Shown here: piece by piece, positions 36,539 through 40,053 of the stretch
Layout of the letters: every line of letters starts with the position of its first letter
Position numbering within the stretch: the stretch's first letter is position 1
NCBI GenBank assembly: GCA_024280155.1
Contig: JAJRQQ010000055.1
Location: forward strand, 1 to 40,191
Source of the DNA: Bacteroidota bacterium
Lineage (GTDB): Bacteria > Bacteroidota > Bacteroidia > Flavobacteriales_D > Crocinitomicaceae
Reading direction: 5' to 3'
DNA length: 40,191 nucleotides
Position numbers and translations under genes: made by a program
The notes under the pieces: generated by a model
Seen by the model: the letters and a program-made list of their open reading frames with translations, nothing else
Database searches by the model: none
Told to the model about the DNA's origin: nothing

Positions 36539-36746
36539 CCAAGCTACCTCGCGAACCTTTCGCGTGGTCTTGGTTTCTCAACCCAAAAATTTTATTTAAC
36601 CACAACAACTCCATCTTTCATTCCTTTTTCTCCTGCATAATCAATAGCACTGCTATATAAATATTGCTCAAGTTTTTAAAAAGCAAAACCCCGCGAAAGG
36701 TTCGCGAGGTAGCTTTTTAATTTGTTCTTCGTGCGTTAGCGGGGGT
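36539..36746. repeat. RAYT-derived REP repeat unit R1 (short form)
   Basis: 208 bp. The left edge carries CTACCTCGCGAACCTTTCGCG (palindrome CGCGAA-CCT-TTCGCG at 36550-36564). The right edge carries the same word inverted (36692-36706), then TTCTTCGTGCGTTAGCGGGGGT. The left hairpin is extended by ACCAAG/CTTGGT, the right by AAAAGC/GCTTTT. Between them is the 3' end of a transposase gene on the minus strand. Compared with R2 and R3 about 90-110 bp of interior are deleted. Confidence 0.85.
36592..36672 (-). pseudogene. RAYT/IS200-like transposase C-terminal remnant in R1
   Basis: 26 codons and a TAA encode LEQYLYSSAIDYAGEKG followed by MKDGVVVVK. YSSA-DYAGEKG is the usual C terminus of REP-associated Y1 transposases. 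No start or catalytic residues remain. Confidence 0.7.
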
Positions 36747-37082
36747 ACAAAATTTTACAGAATTTTTATCTCCCATAGGTCCTTCAACCCATTTCTTATC
36801 ATGAATATTATCATAATCTGATTCGAAAGTTTCTCCTTGAGACAGCAAACCTCCTGAATAGTCATATGTTGTAAATTCTCCTTTAATTTTACCGTTCTCA
36901 ACTTGTATTCTTTGAGAGACTTCTCCATTTTCATGCCTTGTAATTATCACTCCATTAAAAAGTTCTTCATCCTGAGAATAAATCAGACAGCCTTTCTGAT
37001 TAAATTCACCCAATTCTGTTTCACTCGAATCACAAGAAACCAAGCTACCCATTAAAACAATATATAATATCAGCATTTTCAT
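36717..37082 (-). CDS. MORN/YwqK-like lipoprotein, candidate immunity protein
   Basis: A 121-residue protein with signal peptide MKMLILYIVLMGSL and lipobox VSC, so it is probably lipid-anchored. Residues about 41-90 form MORN_2-type repeats (LFNGVIITRHENGEVSQRI, GKIKGEFTTYDYSGGLLSQGE), the module found in YwqK-type antitoxins. It lies 18 bp downstream of a type-44 toxin fragment in the same orientation, the usual place for an immunity gene. The last eight residues (PANARRTN) and the stop are encoded by repeat unit R1, so the original C terminus was lost or replaced. Immunity function is inferred from position and repeat type. Confidence 0.6.
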   Translation of the reverse strand: MKMLILYIVLMGSLVSCDSSETELGEFNQKGCLIYSQDEELFNGVIITRHENGEVSQRIQVENGKIKGEFTTYDYSGGLLSQGETFESDYDNIHDKKWVEGPMGDKNSVKFCTPANARRTN

Positions 37083-37100
37083 TTTTTAAAAATAATACTT

Positions 37101-37493
37101 TTAATAACCTCTTTTATCATATCGCCAATACCTCGTGTTAAAACCATATTTAATCAAATAAGCATCACGTGTATCGTCACTTGTCCCAGTATCTCTTTTC
37201 TGTGCATCATCAGCTTCTTCGACCAATTCATTTAAATGATAACCAACTGCCCTGCCAAGTACTCCATACGAAATATTACCCCAATCATCCATTCTTGTCA
37301 AAATTCCGTTATTAAATGACCATTCACCTATTATTGCAGCTCCGAAAGAGACCGTTCCATCATCTTCATTCCATGATTTCAAATCATATTCTTCATCTGT
37401 TCCTACCTTAAAATAAAACCAATTATCGATAGCAATTCCACCATTCCAATTTCCATAGCTTTGGCCAATTGAAGCATTACCGAGCGGGGGTAA
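37101..37493 (-). CDS. Orphan C-terminal toxin fragment (polymorphic toxin type 44-like)
   Basis: An open frame of 130 codons and a stop, with no ATG near its beginning; a TTG at 37382 is the only likely start and would lose the first 37 residues. The sequence reads FYFKVGTDEEYDLKSW, then DDWGNISYGVLGRAVGY, AQKRDTGTSDDTRDAYLIKYGFN. The GN-YG--GRA-G, A--AQ and DD--D---I--G pattern matches my memory of the type 44 polymorphic toxin domain (PF15607), a predicted nuclease. Its upstream edge coincides with a TACCCCCGCT word that also begins the repeat units. It looks like a displaced toxin tip awaiting fusion to a full toxin, not an independent gene. Confidence 0.55.
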   Translation of the reverse strand, partial: LPPLGNASIGQSYGNWNGGIAIDNWFYFKVGTDEEYDLKSWNEDDGTVSFGAAIIGEWSFNNGILTRMDDWGNISYGVLGRAVGYHLNELVEEADDAQKRDTGTSDDTRDAYLIKYGFNTRYWRYDKRGY

Positions 37494-37499
37494 TTACCT

Positions 37500-37865
37500 T
37501 CACTCTTTAATAAAATCATCTTCGTTCAAGTCTGGGTGAAACTCAAGTTTAGAGCCGCTGATTTGAGTAGTGTACGATGAAGGAGTAGAATCAATATCAT
37601 TTTGATACAAACCCTGACTCTTCCAATCGTTAAAACAAATTTTCTCAAATGCTCCATCATAAAACTCCCATGTTCCTTGATTGACCACTTTATTGTTGAT
37701 GTAATAAAAGTAGACTCCTGAATATTGCCGTGTACTTTTTAATTCAATCACATGATCCGAATTTTCTCTTGCCACATATTTCCCTAATAAGTTTTTATTA
37801 CTACTCAGACAAGAGGGAAGTTCAAATATTAAAACAACGAACACTATTAAGTTTATTTTATTCAT
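37500..37865 (-). CDS. Lipoprotein of unknown function in the cassette region
   Basis: A 121-residue protein with signal peptide MNKINLIVFVVLIFEL and lipobox PSC followed by LSSNK. The mature part is a small beta-rich domain: LLGKYVARENSDHVIELKS, YSGVYFYYINNKVVNQGTWEF, ISGSKLEFHPD, suggesting a lipocalin-like barrel. I do not recognise the family. It ends 6 bp before the edge of the toxin fragment and lies in the same orientation. It could be an immunity protein for a lost toxin or an unrelated lipoprotein. The 126 bp upstream, to repeat R2, hold nothing recognised. Confidence 0.6.
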   Translation of the reverse strand: MNKINLIVFVVLIFELPSCLSSNKNLLGKYVARENSDHVIELKSTRQYSGVYFYYINNKVVNQGTWEFYDGAFEKICFNDWKSQGLYQNDIDSTPSSYTTQISGSKLEFHPDLNEDDFIKE

Positions 37866-37991
37866 GCTGATTTTTAGTTGATGTTATGATTATCCTTTCA
37901 GTTGTTTATTCTTCATCGTATATTTCTCTCTACCCAAACGTTCTAACCTGTAGTTGATTCAATCAGTTTTCTGTCTAGTAGGAAAAGCTCC

Positions 37992-38294
37992 CCAAGCTAC
38001 CTCGCGAACCTTTCGCGTGGTCTTGGTTTATCAACCCAAAAATTTTATTTAACCACAACAACTCCATCTTTCATTCCTTTTTCTCCTACATAATCAATAG
38101 CACTGCTATATAAATATTGCCCAAGTTTTTAAAAAAAAACCTGCATCTACAGGGTTATTGTGAATATACTTAATTTTTTCAAAAGTAACTTTATTTTCTT
38201 TTTCGTTTTTTAGAATGTTGTTATTAAAAAGAAAAAACCCGCGAAAGGTTCGCGAGGTAGCTTTTTAGTTTTTTCTTCGTGCGTTAGCGGGGGT
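37992..38294. repeat. RAYT-derived REP repeat unit R2 (long form)
   Basis: 303 bp with the same ends as R1: left CTACCTCGCGAACCTTTCGCG, right CGCGAAAGGTTCGCGAGGTAGC, then TTCGTGCGTTAGCGGGGGT. The interior is about 100 bp longer than R1 and almost identical to R3. Confidence 0.85.
38045..38226 (-). pseudogene. RAYT/IS200-like transposase C-terminal remnant in R2
   Basis: The minus strand encodes FEKIKYIHNNPVDAGF, then after a T9 tract in a different frame YLYSSAIDYVGEKG and the terminal VVVVK with TAA. (K)-YIHNNPV-AG and YSSA-DYAGEKG in this order are the end of REP-associated tyrosine transposases. The frame is broken at the T tract; no HUH motif or catalytic Tyr region is present. Confidence 0.75.
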
Positions 38295-38374
38295 ATTGCA
38301 AATGCCTAACGTTGACTATTAAGATTCCGCAGGATTATAAATCCGGCGGTGCGGGGGGGCGAGATGCAATCTCG
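38292..38374. repeat. Cluster of three short palindromes with three-base loops
   Basis: GGTATT-GCA-AATGCC (38292-38306), CCGC-A-GGATT-ATA-AATCC-G-GCGG (38327-38348) and CGAGAT-GCA-ATCTCG (38360-38374). Each has a 5-6 bp core stem and a 3-base loop, the same geometry as the CGCGAA-CCT-TTCGCG palindromes of R1-R4 but with different stem sequences. Confidence 0.65.
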
Positions 38375-38423
38375 AACCAGCGGTTTAGCTTGTTATTCGC
38401 GGACTAGCGGGCAATCACACTTT

Positions 38424-38951
38424 CTATAGATTACCTTTAGCCTTGTAATTGCGCTCAATAAATCCAACGTAAACAAAGATGATCCCAAAACAAAAAAACA
38501 ATAAAGATAGACTGAGCTTATTAAGATAAGTTACATTATTGTACACCTCCAAATTTAAATATTTTTCATCATTAATTTCCAACTCTATAATATCAATTTT
38601 ATTATAAAACATAAATCTAAATTGATCCCCTGCACTTCTATTTCTAGGCTTCAAAATTTTTAGTTTTACTTTTTTGACTTTATTCGCTACTGCTATAATT
38701 TCATCGTAATTAATTTCTTTTATAAGTAAACTACTTATCACAAATTCATTGCTATATCCAACTAGATAAAAAACTATCCTGTTATTTTTATAATTACGAA
38801 TATGTTTTACGTCTTTCGCAAGAAAAGCATTAACCTCTATTAAATCATCCTTAGCCACATCAAAATTTATAAAATAATTTAAGGACAAAATAAATGGAAT
38901 AATTGCAACAATAAAAATTAAGATATAACTGTTTGAACGATTATGCTTCAT
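38424..38951 (-). CDS. Two-TM membrane protein of unknown function
   Basis: A 175-residue protein with a membrane helix at residues about 9-28 (YILIFIVAIIPFILSLNYF) and a second near the C terminus (about 145-165, LSLSLLFFCFGIIFVYVGF). Between them is an extracytoplasmic domain rich in Lys, Ile and Asn with strand-like segments (NRIVFYLVGYSNEF, FRFMFYNKIDIIELEIN). I do not recognise the family. It lies between two near-identical repeat units, and this topology is often seen in immunity proteins and in DUF3592-like proteins; either is a guess. It is more AT-rich than the chromosomal genes to the left. Confidence 0.55.
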   Translation of the reverse strand: MKHNRSNSYILIFIVAIIPFILSLNYFINFDVAKDDLIEVNAFLAKDVKHIRNYKNNRIVFYLVGYSNEFVISSLLIKEINYDEIIAVANKVKKVKLKILKPRNRSAGDQFRFMFYNKIDIIELEINDEKYLNLEVYNNVTYLNKLSLSLLFFCFGIIFVYVGFIERNYKAKGNL

Positions 38952-39026
38952 GCCACTATACCATTAATAAACAAAATGAATATTGCTTTACTGTTGAACA
39001 ATAATGATAATGACACAAATACATTT

Positions 39027-39437
39027 CTACTTAATACATAACTTTTCAACGTTCCTCCACGGAACAACAATGTAGATGCCTGATTTAAAAATAACCCTAG
39101 ATGGAAGTATTTTTAAATCACCATTTTCATTTACACATTCTAATTCAAACCTAGTACAATACTCTCCGCTACCATGATCAATCTGTACAGAAATCATAAT
39201 ATCACTAATTTGCTCAATTGTATAAAACTTAATTAAATAATAATCCGATTGCCAATCTAAATGATTTAAATTATTATTTATAATATACTTTTCTGATAGA
39301 TAAGAGTTAACATCCACCCCTTTCCTCATATCATCCATAAACGATTTGGCAAGGTGCTCTTCTGGAGACAAATTTAGTTGAGCAGTAGTTCTAAAACCAT
39401 TTGCAAATAACACCATAATTAACAATAATTTATACAT
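39027..39437 (-). CDS. Small secreted protein of unknown function
   Basis: A 136-residue protein with a signal peptide (MYKLLLIMVLFANGFRTTAQ) probably cleaved after TAQ. The mature part begins LNLSPEEHLAKSFMDDMRKG (helical) and turns into a strand-rich region ending IFKSGIYIVVPWRNVEKLCIK. Two Cys residues in ECVNE and CTRFELEC may pair. I do not recognise a family. It lies 75 bp upstream of the two-TM gene in the same orientation, and both are enclosed by repeat units R2 and R3, so they may move together. Confidence 0.55.
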   Translation of the reverse strand: MYKLLLIMVLFANGFRTTAQLNLSPEEHLAKSFMDDMRKGVDVNSYLSEKYIINNNLNHLDWQSDYYLIKFYTIEQISDIMISVQIDHGSGEYCTRFELECVNENGDLKILPSRVIFKSGIYIVVPWRNVEKLCIK

Positions 39438-39570
39438 TTCTTTTTGTGTTTAAAATAATAAAACTTCAACAAATTTCTACAGGTTATAACTAATCAAAAC
39501 TTATACCTACGACCTTTAGTTATTTTGTCACTTCCATCTGATCCAGTCTGTTTATATGTAATTTCTACCC

Positions 39571-39871
39571 CAAGCTACCTCGCGAACCTTTCGCGTGGTC
39601 TTGGTTTATCAACCCAAAAATTTTATTTAACCACAACAACTCCATCTTTCATTCCTTTTTCTCCTACATAATCAATAGCACTGCTATATAAATATTGCTC
39701 AAGTTTTTAAAAAAAAAACCTGCATCTACAGGGTTATTGTGAATATACTTAATTTTTTCAAAAGTAACTTTATTTTCTTTTTCGTTTTTTAGAATGTTGT
39801 TATTAAAAAGAAAAAAACCGCGAAAGGTTCGCGAGGTAGCTTTTTAGTTTTTTCTTCGTGCGTTAGCGAGA
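39571..39871. repeat. RAYT-derived REP repeat unit R3 (long form)
   Basis: About 301 bp, nearly identical to R2: by eye it differs in one base of the transposase end, the length of an A run (10 against 9), an A/C run near the right palindrome, and its right edge (GCGAGAG instead of GCGGGGGT). It is fused directly to R4. Confidence 0.85.
39623..39804 (-). pseudogene. RAYT/IS200-like transposase C-terminal remnant in R3
   Basis: Same content as in R2 (FEKIKYIHNNPVDAGF, then YLYSSAIDYVGEKG), with a T10 tract between them, which gives a different frame offset from R2 but again no open frame. Confidence 0.75.
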
Positions 39872-39872
39872 G

Positions 39873-40053
39873 TGGTCTTGGTTTCTCCACCCAAAAATTT
39901 TATTTAACCACAATAACTCCATCTTTCATTCCTTTTTCTCCTGCATAATCAATAGCACTGCTATATAAATATTGCTCAAGTTTTAAAAAGCAAAACCCTG
40001 CGAAAGGTTCGCGAGGTAGCTTTTTAGTTTTTTCTTCGTGCGTTAGCGGGGGT
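39873..40053. repeat. RAYT-derived REP repeat unit R4 (short form, left palindrome lost)
   Basis: 181 bp. It begins at TGGTCTTGGTTTCTCCACCC, i.e. after the left palindrome seen in R1-R3, directly joined to R3. The right side is complete (TGCGAAAGGTTCGCGAGGTAGC then TTCGTGCGTTAGCGGGGGT). The interior deletion resembles R1. Confidence 0.8.
39900..40000 (-). pseudogene. RAYT/IS200-like transposase C-terminal remnant in R4
   Basis: LEQYLYSSAIDYAGEKG with the end MKDGVIVVK and TAA, preceded in frame by FAGFCFLK derived from the palindrome and its flank. An accidental longer open frame to 40121 exists but its N-terminal part is repeat and flank sequence, not a gene. Confidence 0.65.

Follow-up and report, generated by a model that had tools for sequence, protein, structure and literature searches.

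Repeat units with a RAYT 3' end between inverted palindromes in a Bacteroidota contig: probable MITE-like derivatives of a REPtron

Four related units near the contig end

The stretch of DNA analysed here (the window, 40,191 nucleotides) is contig C54 (JAJRQQ010000055.1) of a 2.86-Mb Bacteroidota assembly (GCA_024280155.1) in 114 contigs that is 88.8% complete. It carries four related units, R1 to R4, in which the 3' end of a gene for a REP-associated tyrosine transposase (RAYT) is accompanied by hairpins of the repetitive extragenic palindrome (REP) type, and the contig stops shortly beyond R4. The units are probably non-autonomous derivatives, similar to miniature inverted-repeat transposable elements (MITEs), of a REPtron, that is, of a RAYT gene between inverted REP-type ends. 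An earlier note, made from the sequence letters alone, had reported four related units, and a repeat search detected them at the same places, with their ends refined by a few bases:

36539..36745, minus strand: unit R1; leader, REP-L, RAYT 3' end from about residue 153-160, REP-R
37990..38293, minus strand: unit R2; leader, REP-L, RAYT 3' end from about residue 136 (broken frame), REP-R
39568..39873, minus strand: unit R3; layout as R2 (99% identical), altered leader joined to the truncated end of R4
39873..40052, minus strand: unit R4; leader, REP-L, RAYT 3' end, only the first arm of REP-R kept
36539..36573, minus strand: REP-R hairpin of R1, arms CCAAG/CTTGG
36678..36718, minus strand: REP-L hairpin of R1, arms AAAAAGC/GCTTTTT
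37992..38026, minus strand: REP-R hairpin of R2
38226..38266, minus strand: REP-L hairpin of R2
39570..39604, minus strand: REP-R hairpin of R3
39805..39845, minus strand: REP-L hairpin of R3
39985..40025, minus strand: REP-L hairpin of R4, with a single stem mismatch

On the minus strand, the order is leader (CCCCCGCTAACGCACGAAGAA.AAA.TAAAAA), REP-L, RAYT 3' end and REP-R. One repeat family (D2) was found in all four units at 88-100% identity, and a second (D1) in R1-R3 at 95-100% and in R4 at 78% in a shifted register. The start of the R3 leader is changed to TCTCGCTAACG, and R4 is joined to this leader with most of its REP-R gone. As the earlier note had described, oppositely oriented palindromes bound R1-R3, and R4 has only one. 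The palindrome of R4 is, in addition, mismatched (TGCGAA). The window has six occurrences of the pattern CGCGAA-nnn-TTCGCG, whereas 300 first-order Markov sequences gave 0.0 on average. Folding with DNA parameters gave -12.5 kcal/mol for REP-L of R1 and -11.4 kcal/mol for REP-R of R2 (its complement, -11.7), and in each case all 500 shuffles folded less stably. The observation of four units is real and far beyond chance. A GTAG tetranucleotide, which the same note had likened to the guide-like sequence of Escherichia coli REPs, does lie beside the palindromes of R1-R3. It stands on the 3' side of the stem, however, with CTAC on the 5' side; this orientation is opposite to that in E. coli, and the comparison fails.

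The same peptide, YLYSSAIDY.GEKGMKDGV[VI]VVK, is encoded on the minus strand of R1-R4, and its assignment to the RAYT C terminus was borne out by a search with an intact RAYT, which returned C-terminal matches. In R2 and R3 it is preceded by YIHNNPVDAG, which is read in another frame, so neither unit has a transposase tail that stays open there. Next to R2, at 38309-38412 of the window, lies a second repeat that has a hairpin of its own (CCGCTGGTTCGAGATTGCATCTCG, after CCCGCTAGTCCGCGAATAACAA); related stretches were found on contigs C36, C41 and C97 and in the related genome G014.

Copies elsewhere in the same assembly

A 306-base query detected 17 places on eight contigs: the four in the window and 13 full or half copies on seven other contigs (three each on C97 and C46, two each on C36 and C43, and one each on C41, C87 and C30). 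In addition, it matched a leader alone on C36 and 23 bases on C40. The genome-wide search for CGCGAA-nnn-TTCGCG that had been proposed earlier gave 15 sites in the assembly, and 22 matches when up to three mismatches were allowed, with none for the reversed-pattern control in either case.

Units bearing a RAYT remnant were found on C54, C97, C36 and C43, with a further one on C36 cut by the contig edge, and the remaining copies are half units composed of the leader and REP-L. The 5' boundary is constant to a few bases across 16 copies, and the units on C54, C97, C36 and C43 have a common junction near residue 134-136. The flanks differ for the most part, although some are in common; they are incompletely known, because each copy lies within 6 kb of a contig end. 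A third common stretch (GTCTTCTCTCGGTACTCATTTTGTTCACAAAA) was noticed at L054:3713-3744, L054:5187-5221 and L056:1955-1986; one of these places is inside a RAYT remnant, and the other two adjoin a REP.

The presumed parent gene and its class

The earlier note had supposed that a full RAYT mobilises the units. No such gene of this family was found in the own assembly, where the search with an intact RAYT gave ten matches, all of them C-terminal and none starting before residue 102; action in trans is inferred. The RAYT-like genes of C102, C23 and C15 were dismissed as parents: their NF047646 scores (61.6, 51.4 and 43.0 bits, respectively) are below the cut-off of 80, and that search did not return them either.

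A match to the intact RAYT was present in 20 of 60 related genomes. The intact relatives were those of G030 (the query itself), G036 (74% identity), G014 (73%, at a contig edge that cuts the gene), G037 (63%) and G048 (60%), with others lower; the genes at 73-74% belong to same-genus and same-family genomes. From a scan of species genomes, the best 80 RAYT loci among the matches listed were taken, of which L108-L151 form the closer homologue set. By title these loci are from Bacteroidota, except for at least one from Balneolaceae, which we take to lie outside that phylum. In the same-genus genome G020 (L092-L100), solitary REPs (CCCCAAGCT.CCGCGCGAACC..) occur at several places and the RAYT only as an N-terminal fragment.

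All four intact genes compared with NF047646 passed its cut-off, with 87.3-92.3 bits (five entries, the Flavobacterium davisii gene being entered twice). Within the motif NH[LIV]H, N59, H60 and H62 are invariant in seven of seven relatives, F. davisii having SHVH; the window units are without that part. The tyrosine motif YIH[QN]NP, retained as YIHNNP in R2 and R3, has Y145, H147, N149 and P150 invariant in seven of seven relatives and N, Q, M or S at position 148. At the place of the presumed WQ motif, WR is found in five of seven relatives and WQ in two. According to the available text of PMC6006769, RAYT group 5 corresponds to TnpA subclass 2.6, and, judged by motifs and hosts, the RAYTs studied here appear to fit this class, with the WQ motif unsettled. 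As that text describes the subclass, it has in common with our genes the NH.H and YIH.NP motifs, Bacteroidota hosts and atypical flanking hairpins with copies elsewhere in the genome and no GT[AG]G foot, whereas its genes are low-copy and ours have exact duplicates and internally deleted derivatives.

Inverted ends around intact RAYT genes

Intact RAYT genes across Bacteroidota often sit between inverted CCCCCGCTnCCGCnCGA..TCGnG ends. The intact RAYT with inverted flanks that the earlier note had asked for was found in relatives, in which ten of 11 evaluated genes scored above the best of 200 shuffles; L064 failed this per-locus test, from which L061 (cut by a contig edge) and 19 loci without a suitable gene found by the script were left out. 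In the closer set, the motif GCTnCCGCnCGA..TCGnG was found upstream in 34 of 44 loci, inverted downstream in 33 of 43 and on both sides in 26 of 43. The corresponding counts over all 80 best loci, 35/80, 36/78 and 27/78, barely exceed these, and therefore the more distant genes are mostly without the exact motif. Outside the flanks, there were 29 matches in 766,292 bases. A stem pair covaries in the closer set (A-T 41, G-C 23, other 3), and the ends read GCTnCC before the stem, with no 5' GT[AG]G foot. When flanks from other species were used as the null, only 22 of 72 loci reached the 99% level, but REPs of different species are homologous, which makes such a null unsuitable, and per-locus shuffles and motif counts were used for that reason.

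Shortened derivatives in other genomes

The proposed architecture, inverted REPs enclosing a transposase 3' end, recurs in F. davisii 90-106, where one intact REPtron is accompanied by five derivatives within 27 kb (approximately 806,640-833,690). These share one junction, and one of them is inverted relative to the others. In four of them the initial 28-30 nt are identical to those of the intact element, and in the fifth the match is 44 nt at 90.9% identity; approximately 36 nt of filler and 189-190 nt of the right end follow (94.7-97.9% identity). As the derivatives match both ends of the intact REPtron, F. davisii most clearly has the appearance of MITE-like internal deletion. The right part of the window units has its match in the G014 gene; among the sequences compared, none is a full counterpart of their left end.

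Two 211-nt derivatives, 93.9% identical and ending at the motif, were found in Paludibacter sp. STD2_198. In total, 15 fragments from G030, G063, G067, G068, G072, G077, G079, G080, G083, G090, G096 and G097 were inspected, and several were not bounded by REPs at both ends. By eye, further REP-bounded derivatives were seen in a Bacteroidales metagenome-assembled genome (MAG), in Chryseobacterium formosense (one of two fragments) and in Labilibaculum (two, with degenerate ends). The F. ajazii derivative is without REP-R, G096 may hold a further derivative with another hairpin type, and both ends were not seen by eye in G063, G067, G079, G097, G090 (contig edge) and G030. A double start like the window leader (CCCCC.GCT..CGCACGAAGAA ahead of the REP) precedes the Bacteroidales MAG derivative (L200).

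The retained 3' part starts at residue 136 in F. davisii, 134-136 in the longer units of the own assembly, about 135-136 in G014 (by eye), 138 in Labilibaculum and 140 in F. ajazii. Several lineages (L188-L189, L054, L101, L190 and L191) thus break near the same RAYT codon, about 134-140, which may reflect a junction inherited from long ago, a preferred breakpoint or a stretch that the right end needs.

Movement of whole elements or recombination

Two REPtrons of 695 nt in G086 (Bacteroidota MAG isolate FLAVO1) are 100% identical, lie 1.24 kb apart, have unrelated flanks and both end exactly at CCCCCGCT and AGCGGGG. Over approximately 0.7 kb, REPtron pairs are 97.0% identical in Labilibacter marinus and 96.3% in Sinomicrobium sp.; with 71-88% identity, the within-genome pairs in G078, G084, G091 and G066 carry little information. 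An identical pair in G095 was discarded as an assembly overlap, since the identity continues through the contig ends. No target duplication was visible by eye in the G086 or F. davisii flanks. To judge from the nearly identical whole and shortened copies in other Bacteroidota, this kind of RAYT, thought to stay put, seems able to move.

Several observations weigh against a transpositional origin of the units. The own assembly, incomplete and broken near repeats, is without an intact RAYT of the family, and for 54 of the 80 named loci either the strict motif is missing from one or both sides or the two sides could not both be assessed. A search for empty sites, made with each flank of the own-assembly and F. 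davisii copies separately, gave no clean one. For three F. davisii elements, one flank matches elsewhere up to the element and the other does not, as expected from recombination at the element. The F. davisii derivatives are confined to their 27 kb and the duplicated REPtrons lie at most 3 kb apart, and recombination might also yield copies set so closely. In the own assembly, a second repeat in the 5' flank of R2 is also present on C36, Rhs leaders on C38 have a match in the 5' flank of the C43 copy, and one common stretch comes after the half units on C46, C87, C30 and C97. Because this stretch runs into Rhs core fragments, these half units probably travelled with Rhs modules. With one-sided flank matches, no clean empty site and all close copies near neighbours, homologous recombination is a serious competing explanation of the spread, but a weaker one for the exact G086 pair.

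In its fullest form, this alternative holds that the units are decayed RAYT remnants, an old REPtron in a toxin-immunity array having been multiplied together with the modules by recombination or segmental duplication, with no transposition of the short form. It would account for the confined arrays, the Rhs leader common to the half units, the position of F. davisii elements at paralogy breaks and the R3-R4 fusion, and it is helped by the incomplete knowledge of flanks so close to contig ends. It is less easily reconciled with sharp ends at one motif between unrelated flanks, in both orientations in F. davisii, with the two exact full-length G086 copies or with one architecture in several genomes, and we consider it unlikely.

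The toxin-immunity neighbourhood

The setting of the units, overlooked in the earlier note, is one of toxin and immunity genes, with an Ntox44 domain in the window and Rhs cores beside copies on other contigs. Two neighbours of R1 were characterised:

37101..37493, minus strand: Ntox44 toxin domain between R1 and R2 (PF15607, E 1.9e-13, 51.1 bits, cut-off 24), with no Rhs core in the same frame
36717..37082, minus strand: small lipoprotein-like gene with no Pfam family above cut-off, whose frame enters the R1 leader and ends there

In Pfam scans of 40 proteins, Ntox44, SUKH/SMI1_KNR4, Endonuclea_NS_2, CdiI (barely) and DUF2931 were above cut-off, and two deaminase matches, MORN_2, Peptidase_U40, PQQ_2 and Rib_5-P_isom_A below it. 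SUKH and endonuclease domains lie beside the F. davisii elements, and the G086 pair is adjoined by the barely accepted CdiI-like gene. In the own assembly, nine Rhs core matches were found on C30, C46, C38 and C97. Short Rhs-core modules (339-395 codons) are arrayed along L056:1-5800 and L058:1-3400, with a small unrelated gene after each module and no full-length Rhs gene in either stretch.

Within 5 kb of a listed Rhs core were six of 77 RAYT genes (40 genomes) against 0.41 expected (Poisson P 4.7e-6), and three of the 51 genes with at least 60% identity against 0.25 expected (P 2.1e-3), in statistics that treat species as independent, which they are not. The 77 near-full-length places were hand-picked, fragments and the G095 duplicate being excluded, and only the stronger Rhs matches were used. 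The excess may merely reflect arrays that tolerate insertions. Outside the F. davisii cluster, the distance from each of five weaker matches to a listed Rhs or SUKH match is 0.3-4.5 kb; 3.0% of that chromosome is within 5 kb of one.

This neighbourhood also admits the view that the repeats are functional joints of a toxin-immunity array, serving cassette recombination or transcription end, and that the RAYT tail is accidental. Copies do sit between toxin and immunity-like modules, and the upstream frame enters the leader and stops in at least four of 16 copies (R1, two on C97 and that on C30). However, similar ends flank intact RAYT genes in many genomes, mostly away from Rhs (71 of 77 genes lie more than 5 kb from a core), and the Rhs array on C38 has no REP match at up to two mismatches; we consider this view very improbable. 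The cassette-like spacing also brought up integron gene cassettes, with attC sites and an IntI integrase, as a candidate reading.

Discussion

The units are best explained as non-autonomous MITE-like derivatives of a Bacteroidota REPtron with a group 5 (TnpA subclass 2.6) RAYT between inverted REP-type ends, a reading to which we give a probability of roughly 0.75. It builds on the RAYT descent of the units, their inverted hairpin ends, their sharp boundaries within mostly different flanks, their recurrence and the identical full-length copies. Like MITEs, they have terminal inverted repeats (R4 being without one end), no intact transposase and multiple copies at differing flanks, some of which are common. 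Palindrome-ended, non-autonomous elements related to Y1 transposase elements exist in haloarchaea as palindrome-associated transposable elements; unlike the units described here, these are archaeal and related to insertion sequences of the IS200/IS605 type, not to RAYTs.

In the mechanism that we propose, the 5' part of the gene, HUH motif included, would have been deleted from an ancestral copy that kept both hairpin ends and approximately the last 50 codons, and R1 and R4 would have been shortened further, apparently by deletion between TTTTTAAAA repeats. A full RAYT, presumably catalysing the reaction in trans through a single-stranded intermediate, would recognise the end hairpins as single strands and cut at the ends, CCCCCGCT... 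and ...AGC..GGGG, and the copies would be inserted without target duplication, often nearby.

REPINs, as presented in the available part of PMC3116915, are likewise non-autonomous, with two inverted REPs and a presumed dependence on a RAYT, whereas our units keep a RAYT stretch, measure 180-360 nt and differ in REP sequence and guide side; a REPIN is a doublet without gene sequence inside, and here a RAYT coding remnant lies between the REPs. The TIRtrons with their TIRYT genes, in the portion of PMC3733652 at hand, are RAYT-like genes enclosed by inverted repeats; G-rich motifs occur in some, and some of the repeats are dispersed. Their reported motif is GGGGWSAS, compared with the AGCGGGGG end found here, and internally deleted gene copies are not mentioned in that portion. 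The local clusters found here resemble the Marinomonas REPs, which have multiplied near their tnpAREP (PMC8266576, in the text available). A literature search turned up no description of RAYT-derived MITEs (it did not reach Bertels et al. 2017) and no paper on RAYTs with Rhs.

As far as the accessible sections of PMC2817692, PMC3116915, PMC6006769 and PMC8266576 go, REPtrons do not move as units, and REPtrons that move whole and shed internally deleted copies would run counter to these reports. A bolder reading, which we consider less likely than not, is that group 5 REPtrons of Bacteroidota are truly mobile and that their short derivatives seed interbacterial toxin-immunity arrays with portable homology, a transposase regarded as domesticated helping to shuffle the modules. 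If the Rhs excess holds, REPtron movement would be tied to the reassortment of toxin and immunity genes in Bacteroidota. Exact full-length copies together with recurrent deletion derivatives constitute a natural system for testing REPtron movement, and also the step from a whole REPtron towards solitary REPs.

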